Source: a virus
Virus record (IMG/VR): IMGVR_UViG_3300032242_000416
Coordinates: 1 to 24,887 of that record
Direction: 5' to 3' (one strand)
DNA: 24,887 nt
Position numbers and translations under genes: made by a program. This document shows, piece by piece, positions 14,896-24,529 of the stretch. A model generated the notes under the pieces. The model saw nothing but the letters and a program-made list of their open reading frames with translations, was not told the origin of the DNA and did not search any database. The stretch's first letter is position 1; the number at the start of each line of letters is the position of its first letter.

Positions 14896-15567
14896 TTAAC
14901 CCTCCCTTAAGAATCGATGCAATTCTTTTGCATACCATTCAATCTTTCCAGCATCCTCAACTGAGTCACCTTTAAGACCAATACGGCTATTATATTTTTC
15001 AATGTTGCCACGTAGATAGCCAACATAACCTTCTGGTGAAAGCTTAGCCCTAATGTAAGCAATAGTCTCGATACCACCATGCGTGTAGTGTGGAGGGTTG
15101 TTAACCATGTCAGGCTTTGGTTTGTCTCTATTCATAAGATCTAATTCCTTGTGCCTTTCTTTATGATGTTGTTTACATAGCCATACCACTTCAAGAGGCC
15201 TGGAGTAGTCTTCATGATGAGCAACCACTTCAACAGTTGTTCCGCAGCGCTCACATGGTTGACGTACTAGCTCACCTTTTTGTATTGCATAAGCAACTTT
15301 TTGATGAGCTATTTTTTTTAATCTATTTTCTTGTAGCCAAAACTTTTTGTGATGAGCTACATCTTTATAAGATAAAAGGCCTTTCTTCTTTCTCTCATGG
15401 TAATAGACTGACTTGCACGCTTTACAATAACAATCTAATCCGTCTTTTGTATTTGTTGATTTGTAATATTCGCTAACATCCTTAGCAATATTGCATTTAA
15501 AGCAAACTTTAGAATCATTTACTACAACAAAAGGCAAACTATTTGCGTTATCTGCAAATTCTCCCAT
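14896..15567 (-). CDS. Fusion: zinc finger, HNH-like zinc module and C-terminal DUF3310 (223 aa)
   Basis: Three parts are visible. Residues 20-60 hold a treble-clef-like zinc site (C22xxC25 and C48xxC51) followed by a basic stretch. Residues 100-140 hold a second zinc site, CERCG (C105, C108), AHHEDY (His117, His118), and WLCKQHH (C131, H134, H135), which resembles the HNH-associated zinc modules of phages. Residues 154-220 match DUF3310 (NNPPHYTHGGIETIAYI, then YLRGNIEKYN and AGKIEWYAKEL), a small helical domain common in phages. DUF3310 is usually a stand-alone protein, so the fusion is unusual. It follows the SSB-like gene by two bases with no clear ribosome site, suggesting coupling. DNA binding is likely; cleavage is uncertain. 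Confidence 0.7.
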   Translation of the reverse strand: MGEFADNANSLPFVVVNDSKVCFKCNIAKDVSEYYKSTNTKDGLDCYCKACKSVYYHERKKKGLLSYKDVAHHKKFWLQENRLKKIAHQKVAYAIQKGELVRQPCERCGTTVEVVAHHEDYSRPLEVVWLCKQHHKERHKELDLMNRDKPKPDMVNNPPHYTHGGIETIAYIRAKLSPEGYVGYLRGNIEKYNSRIGLKGDSVEDAGKIEWYAKELHRFLREG

Positions 15568-22292: not shown

Positions 22293-22452
22293 AAGCAAAA
22301 AGCATCGTGATCCGTTTAAAACAAAGACGGGAAAAGATAACTTAAAAGCATTGTCAATCAAAAAGCTTTATGAGTTATTAGACAAGGCTGAAGAGAAAGG
22401 CAAGAAGCGTCATAAGATAGCCAAAGAGATTGTACGTAGGACACCGTTATGA
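22270..22452 (+). CDS. Short lysine-rich protein (60 aa)
   Basis: About one third Lys/Arg, with two helices (DNLKALSIKKLYELLDKAEE, then RHKIAKEIVRR). It may bind nucleic acid or act as a small accessory. GAGGAAG before the ATG supports the start, and the stop overlaps the methyltransferase start by four bases (ATGA). Confidence 0.5.
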   Translation: MAEPKVHKSKKHRDPFKTKTGKDNLKALSIKKLYELLDKAEEKGKKRHKIAKEIVRRTPL

Positions 22453-23750
22453 AATATCTTTCAGTATGTAGCGGTATAGAAGCGGCAACAGTAGCATGGC
22501 ATCACATGGGATGGAATCCCGTAGCATTTTCAGAGATTGAAAAATTTCCTAGTGAAGTTTTATCACATCATTATCCAACCGTCCCTAACTTAGGTGACAT
22601 GACAAAATTTAAGGAGTGGAATTTAAATGACTCAATCGGACTTTTGGTCGGAGGAACCCCTTGCCAATCATTCTCAGTCGCAGGTTTACGTAAAGGTCTC
22701 GAAGACCCAAGAGGTAATCTTGCCCTCATCTATTGTGGCATTCTTGACAGATTTAGACCCCAGTGGTTCGTTTGGGAAAACGTGCCAGGTGTCCTCAGTA
22801 GTGGTGGAGGACGGGATTTTGGTTCCTTCCTTGGAGCGGTGGCGCAACTCGGGTATGGGTTCGCATACAGAGTTCTTGACGCTCAGTACTTCGGAGTGGC
22901 CCAAAGACGCAGACGTGTGTTCGTTGTCGGATACCTTGGAGACTGGAGACCTGCCGCAAAGGTTTTATTTGAGTCAGAAAGCTTGCGCAGGGATACTCCG
23001 CCGAGCAGAAGTAAGAGGGAAGAAGCTACCTCCCGCTCTGGAATCGGCCCTGAAATCAGTGGCCCACTCGCCGCAAGAAGATTTGCAGAAACAGACGGAT
23101 TAAGTACAACATCAGCACAGATGATTGCAGTGCCTGAAAACAGAGCAGGCACATTACTTGCAAGAGACTATAAAGGTGTTGATAGCTATGATCATTCAAA
23201 AATTATTCCTATGATTGCTAGTGGTAAAGATCAAGTAGGTACATTAGCCGCATCGCATGGACAAAAGCAATGGCTAGGTAACCAAGAGGCATTCAGTGGT
23301 GACTATCATGTACTAGAACCAATTGCACTCGCAGAAAATACAATCGGAAGACAACCACAGAATGGTGGTAACGGTGATGGCTTTACTGAAGGTGGTCCAA
23401 TGTATACATTAAATGCAACAGGCGTACATGGTATATCTTATGGTTTTGAGCCTGGCATCACAAAGCGTGAAGGTGATCCAAATAGATTTGTAGAAGAGAT
23501 GACACCGACATTAAGGGCGCAAATGGGAGACAATCAAATTGCTACAGTTAATAGTATGGCGGTACGTAGACTTACACCAGTAGAATGTGAGAGACTTCAA
23601 GGATTCCCTGATTATTACACAGACATTAAATTGAAAGGCAAGCCAACACCTGATGGGCCTAGATACAAAGCTTTAGGCAATTCAATGGCAGTACCAGTTA
23701 TGCGATGGATAGGTGAAAGAATTAATGGTTTTACTGATTATCTTGTGTAG
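22449..23750 (+). CDS. DNA cytosine-5 methyltransferase (433 aa)
   Basis: All main C5-methyltransferase blocks are present: SAM-binding SVCSGIEAA (5-13), catalytic Cys72 in GGTPCQSFSVAG, ENVPG (110-114), QRRRRVF (152-158), and the C-terminal RRLTPVECERLQGFP and KALGNSMAVPV. The target-recognition region (about 170-380) is long and carries repeated short units GPLAARR, GTLLARD, GTLAASH, YTLNATG and PTLRAQM, as in many phage enzymes. It methylates cytosine in an unknown sequence, probably to escape host restriction. No partner restriction enzyme is seen. Bases 22627-23103 also encode a second protein in another frame, and this part is richer in G and C than its surroundings. The start overlaps the previous stop (ATGA). 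Confidence 0.9.
   Translation: MKYLSVCSGIEAATVAWHHMGWNPVAFSEIEKFPSEVLSHHYPTVPNLGDMTKFKEWNLNDSIGLLVGGTPCQSFSVAGLRKGLEDPRGNLALIYCGILDRFRPQWFVWENVPGVLSSGGGRDFGSFLGAVAQLGYGFAYRVLDAQYFGVAQRRRRVFVVGYLGDWRPAAKVLFESESLRRDTPPSRSKREEATSRSGIGPEISGPLAARRFAETDGLSTTSAQMIAVPENRAGTLLARDYKGVDSYDHSKIIPMIASGKDQVGTLAASHGQKQWLGNQEAFSGDYHVLEPIALAENTIGRQPQNGGNGDGFTEGGPMYTLNATGVHGISYGFEPGITKREGDPNRFVEEMTPTLRAQMGDNQIATVNSMAVRRLTPVECERLQGFPDYYTDIKLKGKPTPDGPRYKALGNSMAVPVMRWIGERINGFTDYLV
22627..23103 (+). CDS. Overprinted gene inside the methyltransferase gene (158 aa)
   Basis: This frame runs 159 codons wholly inside the methyltransferase gene. AAGGAG at 22611-22616 lies ten bases before its ATG. The product has motifs I recognise from phage hypothetical proteins: DFWSEEPLANHSQSQ (5-19), NSGMGSHTEFLTLSTSEWP (74-92), VCSLSDTLETGDLPQRFYLS (97-116) and ACAGILRRAEVRGKKLPP (119-136). 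The same pairing, an alternative-frame LSxKACAGILRRAExRGK reading against the methyltransferase RRDTPPSR segment, recurs in other phages from memory. The elevated GC of this stretch fits coding pressure on two frames. Function is unknown; a partner of the methyltransferase is a fair guess. Confidence 0.65.
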   Translation: MTQSDFWSEEPLANHSQSQVYVKVSKTQEVILPSSIVAFLTDLDPSGSFGKTCQVSSVVVEDGILVPSLERWRNSGMGSHTEFLTLSTSEWPKDADVCSLSDTLETGDLPQRFYLSQKACAGILRRAEVRGKKLPPALESALKSVAHSPQEDLQKQTD

Positions 23751-23766
23751 CAAAATGTGCAATATA

Positions 23767-23847
23767 TTACACACAAACTAACTTATATTGAATAGATTAC
23801 ATACAAAGCAGTTTGTATAACAAAAATAGCTATTTTTTACACACAAA
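23767..23847 (+). repeat. Three TTACAYACAAA direct repeats upstream of pqqA-like gene
   Basis: TTACACACAAA at 23767-23777, TTACATACAAA at 23797-23807 and TTACACACAAA at 23837-23847. Starts are 30 and 40 bases apart. The last copy runs into the ribosome site of the pqqA-like gene. ATACACAC occurs twice again just after the gene (23932-23939, 23941-23948). They may be regulator sites; no function is proven. Confidence 0.6.
23801..23837. promoter_or_regulatory. Two adjacent palindromes before the pqqA-like gene
   Basis: ATACAAA-GCAG-TTTGTAT (23801-23818, perfect 7-bp arms) is followed by the perfect 16-bp palindrome AAAAATAGCTATTTTT (23822-23837). They lie between the second and third direct repeat. 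They could form RNA hairpins in the leader or bind a regulator. No convincing sigma70 promoter was found here. Confidence 0.5.
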
Positions 23848-23857
23848 GGAGATTAAC

Positions 23858-23932
23858 ATGGCTTGGACTAAACCAGCAGCTACAGAAATGCGTTTCGGAT
23901 TTGAAGTAACTATGTACGTTATGAACAAGTAA
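23858..23932 (+). CDS. pqqA: PqqA-like precursor peptide for PQQ (24 aa)
   Basis: The 24-residue product starts MAWTKPAATEMRFG and continues FEVTMYVMNK. It has the length and all marks of PqqA, the ribosomal peptide that is turned into pyrroloquinoline quinone: the W-x-K-P start, the R-x-G-F-E-V-T core, and Glu16 and Tyr20 in the E-V-T-M-Y motif, the two residues joined by the radical-SAM enzyme PqqE. AAAGGAG (23845-23851) lies six bases before the ATG, an excellent site for high expression. No pqqB, C, D, E or F is in the window, so the peptide would depend on host enzymes. The gene stands alone between the methyltransferase and a strong terminator, flanked by short direct repeats. It is too short for usual gene finders. 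The PqqA call is strong; function in infection is inference. Confidence 0.88.
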   Translation: MAWTKPAATEMRFGFEVTMYVMNK

Positions 23933-23950
23933 TACACACGATACACACTA

Positions 23951-23974
23951 AGGGGAGCTTCGGCTCCCTTTTTT
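23951..23974 (+). terminator. Intrinsic terminator after pqqA-like gene
   Basis: GGGAGC (23953-23958), TTCG tetraloop, GCTCCC (23963-23968), then six T (23969-23974); the stem is extended by weaker pairs at its base. A textbook rho-independent terminator ending the rightward block 18 bases after the pqqA-like stop. Confidence 0.92.
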
Positions 23975-24097
23975 GTTGCCTATTACCTAGAGCCGTAAGG
24001 GTTTGACCCACAAACTGTCATATATCACTTTTTTGAAGTTTATTCAAAATTTAATACATCATTTTCTATATAAATCAATAACTTACCTGTTTTATGA

Positions 24098-24232: not shown

Positions 24233-24529
24233 ATGACAATCTTAGTAAATAAAGCACTTAACTTAGTAGACAGATTAGGTCAATTACAAGACCAAATCAA
24301 AGCCCTTCAAGAGCAAGAGTCAGTACTCAAAGATGAGCTTAAGAACCAAGGTGAAGGCGTACAAGTTGGTCAATACTATACCAGCGATGTAAAGCTTTCA
24401 CAAAGAACTACAGTTGATCACAAAGCTGTATATGCAGAGCTTCAAGTACCAGCTGCATTAATAGCTAAGTACAGCAAATCAACAGCAGTTATTTCAATCA
24501 ACGTAAAACCAATTAGCAAAGGAGAATAA
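24233..24529 (+). CDS. Conserved small phage protein with N-terminal coiled coil (98 aa)
   Basis: Residues 8-40 form a coiled coil (VDRLGQLQDQIKALQEQESV, then LKDELKNQGEG), followed by a beta-rich part (GQYYTSDVKLSQRTTVDHKA) and an alpha/beta end. The SQRTTVDWKA-like segment is one I know from many phage hypothetical proteins with the same coiled coil in front; function is not known. AAAGGAG (24220-24226) lies six bases before the ATG. It is the first gene after the strong promoter, so it is probably well expressed early. Confidence 0.6.
   Translation: MTILVNKALNLVDRLGQLQDQIKALQEQESVLKDELKNQGEGVQVGQYYTSDVKLSQRTTVDHKAVYAELQVPAALIAKYSKSTAVISINVKPISKGE

Follow-up and report, generated by a model that had tools for sequence, protein, structure and literature searches.

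The pqqA gene of the window and its signals

What does a phage do with a gene for PqqA standing alone, and is the short open reading frame at this locus a pqqA gene at all? The DNA in question is an IMG/VR record, a viral fragment of 24,887 bases (the window, by which the whole stretch is meant). Translation of the plus-strand frame at 23858..23932 gives a peptide of 24 residues followed by a stop, MAWTKPAATEMRFGFEVTMYVMNK, where the glutamate is residue 16 and the tyrosine residue 20 within E-V-T-x-Y; coordinates, frame, peptide and both residues are exactly those given in a sequence-only reading of this DNA. The glutamate and the tyrosine of this motif are the residues joined in making PQQ. 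In profile searches, MAWTKPAATEMRFGFEVTMYVMNK matched PF08042 (PqqA) with an E-value of 4.9e-11 and 42.8 bits (cut-off 21.1), all 19 profile positions being covered, and the TIGR02107 equivalog with 40.2 bits against a cut-off of 20, all 21 profile positions being covered. Both curated profiles are exceeded at about twice the cut-off and over the whole length, as the proposed similarity to PqqA demanded; among solved structures, none matching the peptide was found.

The gene has translation and termination signals of its own. With 24 codons, it has the form of a short free-standing ORF (about 22-30 codons with a start, a ribosome site and a stop), and the ribosome-binding site AAAGGAG, read in the sequence at 23845..23851 (+), lies 6 nt 5' of the ATG; its earlier description as a strong ribosome site is fair. 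An AT-rich inverted repeat (23812..23847, +) is located immediately 5' of this site and touches it; it is possibly the end of the methyltransferase transcript or a regulatory stem for pqqA. Directly upstream of the gene no match to a sigma-70-type promoter was found. On the other side, an intrinsic terminator (23950..23975, +) consists of a 9-pair hairpin, AAGGGGAGC-TTCG-GCTCCCTTT (23950-23971), starting 17 nt past the pqqA stop and followed by a T run.

A gene of just 24 codons that is unannotated in its relatives could be suspected to be a chance ORF or misassembled host DNA. Against this, the HMM E-values are 1e-10 to 1e-11, while the PqqA HMM gave zero matches on 14 control genomes; moreover, as described below, close relatives exist in named phages, complete cultured phage genomes carry the gene, and it is under purifying selection. 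This explanation, to which we leave next to no probability, is refuted, and the window gene is confirmed as a full-length PqqA, an orphan without an operon.

The neighbours of pqqA are a DNA methyltransferase upstream (phrog_116, 22449..23750, +) and a small phage gene with a weak RecE-like match downstream (phrog_434, 24233..24529, +), and the other genes of the window include a tape-measure-like protein, an exonuclease, a primosomal protein, a primase/helicase and a RusA resolvase. Being flanked by phage genes, pqqA is placed as an auxiliary metabolic gene or moron would be. No tRNA genes and no integrase were found in the window. The ORF at 14896-15567 (-) has matches to phage families of endonucleases as well as of nucleotide kinases, and in it an HNH-type nuclease is possibly fused to a second domain. 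The closest named relative of the window, MW202545, shares 62% identity over one protein and gave no pqqA match. As for the host, the methyltransferase offers a weak assignment (a 67% partial match in one of 120 Methylophilaceae genomes); the 18-residue core of the peptide, WTKPAATEMRFGFEVTMY, is identical to many Methylophilaceae copies of PqqA (Methylophilus/Methylotenera/Methylopumilus), and the nearest nucleotide sequence in the sampled host genomes differs at 3 of 54 bases. The host of the window phage would accordingly be a Methylophilaceae methylotroph.

pqqA in cultured phages

When the window PqqA was compared by tblastn with the 50,697 phage records of INPHARED, 12 records matched, and ten of them are real phage genomes with pqqA, namely P19250A, Venkman, MEP301, MEP401, MEP402, four Melnitz isolates and the Manatee Spring podovirus; nine of the ten come from Methylophilales/Methylophilaceae isolates. 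In fact, every cultured methylotroph phage examined carries pqqA, where the isolate count refers to reachable genomes and leaves out MEP431-434. The ten carriers differ in genome size (35-142 kb), morphology and gene order, and siphovirus-, podovirus- and myovirus-type phages are all represented. The gene is internal in these phage genomes, at unrelated positions, and exactly one copy is present in each of the 29 records tested, while none of 33 records tested has a PQQ-dehydrogenase repeat domain. P19250A and MEP301 have Thr or Ser where W-x-K-P has its lysine, and their Glu and Tyr are kept. Two records of Acinetobacter phage MD-2021a are of another kind: CAKLQF020000010.1 103204-113263 holds host genes with a full pqqABCDE operon and is bacterial DNA labelled as phage, and CAKLQH020000055.1, which has the same pqqA match, is probably likewise bacterial; both were set aside.

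None of the ten phage genomes has the gene annotated as pqqA, most likely because of its small size, and it had indeed been anticipated that such a gene would be overlooked in other phages. For example in P19250A, an unannotated pqqA lies on the minus strand at KX815270.1 28085-28150 (5001-5066 of our locus L123), and in the annotation of the Manatee Spring podovirus and Melnitz an antisense 'hypothetical protein' overlies pqqA (MW202481.1 2067-2195; MZ577097.1 76100-76195). These antisense ORFs are probably spurious and hide the gene. Within the literature searched, a phage-borne pqqA is not mentioned in the isolate descriptions. The unannotated pqqA of methylophages thus shows what gene callers with a size cut-off miss.

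Conservation of pqqA among viral contigs

Degenerate DNA patterns were scanned over IMG/VR. Each of three scans returned at least 120 matches, including one restricted to GTG at codon 17, so that by the matches listed the viral contigs carrying pqqA number at least in the hundreds; a search of aquatic phage genomes, suggested along with the sequence-only reading, has found close relatives in named phages and further relatives in IMG/VR contigs. Among the matches listed, nearly all are short ORFs and have a start codon close by, and AGGAG-type ribosome sites are found 5' of most of the viral pqqA genes among them. PqqB, PqqC, PqqD or PqqE was encoded in the flanks of none of the 121 viral loci of the first analysis (among the matches listed), which agrees with the claim that the phage gene stands alone. 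In the later GTG-restricted scan, linkage to pqqB-E was seen at one enteric-type locus (L344), and no methylotroph-type viral pqqA linked to pqqBCDE was seen, again among the matches listed.

Conservation of Glu16 and Tyr20 had been set beforehand as one of the points on which the proposal could fail. With a pattern that leaves residues 16 and 20 open and is thereby free of circularity, both are intact in 120 of 120 contigs among the matches listed. This bears on the alternative, already raised from the sequence, that the peptide is a decoy occupying PqqD/PqqE or proteases and lowering PQQ synthesis of the host. A short PqqD-binding peptide could indeed compete, but a decoy would gain from losing the reactive residues, which are never lost in this unbiased sample; furthermore, among the matches listed, 65 of 152 loci have a phage core identical to a host core, and in 60 more the difference is one residue. 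Since the phage peptides match working substrates of the host exactly or nearly so, the decoy is disfavoured and has in our judgement a rather small probability.

Between unrelated phage groups, pS is 0.62 and pN 0.10, with a mean pN/pS of 0.15, or 0.26 for the ten codons that the search pattern left free. As read from these substitution patterns, the ratios show viral pqqA to be under purifying selection. The 152 viral loci (among the matches listed) fall into about 26 gene-sharing groups, which is an upper figure as fragments of different regions may fail to join and inflate the count; the isolate phages with pqqA at minimum belong to distinct lineages. Moreover, of 148 viral pqqA genes, 72 (49%) have a hairpin terminator downstream, against 44 of 428 other ORFs (10%), and shuffled controls gave 2-8 of 148.

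Enteric proviruses with pqqA at pqqU

Besides the methylotroph type, nine proviruses among the GTG-type matches listed (L278, L281, L297, L300, L301, L309, L318, L341 and L361) encode a PqqA of enteric type, WKKPAFIDMRLGLEVTLYISNR or a close variant. Their GC content is mostly 51-54%, and 45% in the short fragment L361. A ribosome site of its own precedes the gene and a hairpin follows it, and in most of the nine its distance to one end of the contig is 300-450 nt. Directly upstream is the 5' part of a TonB receptor which, tested on L309, matches YncD/PqqU, the importer of PQQ, which is also a phage receptor. In every copy the receptor sequence is left at the same point, after VPGLQIQNRQ, and an integrase is located at the opposite end in two of six records tested. 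This layout suggests that the class consists of prophages integrated into pqqU whose pqqA sits immediately within the junction. No match to the junction region was found in 5,426 E. coli genomes. The nine proviruses are related and so may represent one event.

A pqqA adjoining a prophage junction suggests that the gene could be an attachment-site or recombination leftover, brought in by integration at or near a host pqqA and of no benefit to the phage. However, even in the enteric class the junction is in pqqU and not in pqqA. For the methylophages, a tyrosine integrase was detected neither in the window nor in any of 24 further non-enteric records tested, six reference phage genomes included, and since the integrase is absent and the positions of pqqA are internal and varied, a relic is unlikely; phage pqqA also differs from the nearest sampled host at a median of 5 of 54 bases with the protein conserved. 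With no integrase found and no exact identity to host sequence, the leftover reading is largely refuted for methylophages, and overall it seems to us highly improbable.

Host pqqA and a probable role for the phage gene

In lakes and along coasts, the methanol turnover of methylotrophic plankton proceeds by way of a PQQ enzyme. In our sample, pqqA is present in all 120 Methylophilaceae genomes, with a mean of 4.28 and a median of 4 copies (range 1-12) and two or more copies in 114, while pqqE is above cut-off in 112 of 120, with two copies in only three; full-length pqqE is nearly always single. These counts agree with the Lake Washington isolates, which have 3-12 pqqA copies and a single pqqBCDE set (PMC4109929). 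The genome of Methylophilales bacterium LSUCC0135 (G003, locus L199) has 12 scattered pqqA in 2.1 Mb and one full-length pqqE match. For Methylovorus MP688, the availability of PqqA is described as rate-determining (Ge 2015, as cited in PMC11317620). For Methylobacterium extorquens, the same article cites pqqA as dispensable for PQQ synthesis, a cited statement that does not cover the orphan copies.

Taken together, we think it rather probable that the window gene is a functional host-type PqqA gene of a Methylophilaceae phage, supplying substrate for PQQ synthesis by the host. During infection the phage would translate extra PqqA, the PqqD/PqqE of the host would cross-link Glu16 and Tyr20 of the phage peptide, and host PqqB/C and proteases would complete PQQ; the PQQ-dependent methanol dehydrogenase (XoxF/MxaF) might then stay supplied, and energy and formaldehyde flow could continue while host gene expression falls. 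One PqqA peptide is consumed per PQQ and the pathway enzymes are reused. The phage would carry the consumed substrate alone because the enzymes turn over many times and the precursor peptide is used once. Hosts have multiple pqqA beside one pqqE, and for one methylotroph a rate-determining PqqA supply has been reported, so that extra substrate is the best explanation. The stand-alone gene, missed elsewhere and with conserved residues, holds as the sequence-only reading had it; the raised PQQ and methanol dehydrogenase activity that it proposed is well motivated, and we infer it, as we infer the window host, expression and processing.

The phage gene might also serve something other than methanol dehydrogenase, for instance an antioxidant function of PQQ, or an uptake of lanthanides in which PqqA/PQQ would take part. 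The orphan pqqA genes of M. extorquens respond to the form of lanthanide, for which a link to lanthanide uptake has been suggested (PMC11317620), and the enteric-type proviruses carry pqqA without methylotrophy. On the other hand, where hosts of the aquatic class have been identified, they are methylotrophs living on PQQ-dependent methanol oxidation, and the step through PQQ would stay the same in any case; we regard such a role as unlikely, though it is the likeliest of the alternatives to substrate supply.

Supply of substrate to methanol oxidation is thus the reading we keep, in which phages of bacteria that live on methanol probably add to the raw material for the main energy enzyme of their host. 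A broader version can be offered tentatively, at somewhat less than an even chance: pqqA would be near-universal and repeatedly acquired in phages of PQQ-dependent hosts, from methylotroph phages of about 35 kb to more than 260 kb with exactly one host-matched copy to temperate enteric phages that break pqqU and carry pqqA just inside the junction, and infection would in that case be limited quite generally by the supply of PqqA. A 24-codon gene in every cultured methylophage examined changes the list of viral genes that touch one-carbon metabolism, and whether PqqA limits PQQ can be tested directly, the gene being present in isolates whose hosts are known.

Comparison with known systems

Whether pqqA in phages had been described before, a question left by the sequence-only reading, is answered with yes: phage pqqA has been known since 2020, when Coutinho et al. 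reported PqqA in the Lake Baikal virus VP_266 and proposed that it aids methanol oxidation (PMC7678222), and pqqA is also among the viral genes listed in PMC13188868. VP_266, predicted to be a Methylophilaceae virus, resembles the window in its phage-encoded PqqA. However, it is a single T4-like population also credited with methanol dehydrogenase, while the records tested here have no PQQ-dehydrogenase domain and pqqA recurs across many unrelated phages. Moreover, P19250A, stated to encode none of the methylotrophy AMGs of that paper (PMC7678222), does carry pqqA. The breadth of pqqA across cultured methylophages was not found in the literature searched, where most subscription journals are missing; new here are this breadth, the correction on P19250A, the anatomy of the transcription unit and the enteric pqqU context.

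Among bacterial systems, the orphan pqqA genes of Methylophilaceae (PMC4109929) likewise lie apart from pqqBCDE and have a core peptide identical to that of the phage, but they are chromosomal and number 1-12 per genome, in contrast to one per phage; orphan pqqA genes of Methylovorus, Hyphomicrobium and Methylobacterium (PMC9851590, PMC11317620) are also apart from pqqBCDE. PqqA of the pqqABCDE operon belongs to the same family (PF08042, TIGR02107), with full profile coverage, but there pqqB-E are linked to pqqA, a linkage that the methylotroph-type phage gene does not have.

Among phages, the psbA of cyanophages is a moron or auxiliary metabolic gene. By analogy, pqqA may be seen as a similar metabolic gene, derived from the host and found repeatedly in unrelated phages that infect one guild of hosts; unlike psbA, which encodes a replaceable enzyme subunit, it would supply the consumed peptide substrate of a cofactor pathway.
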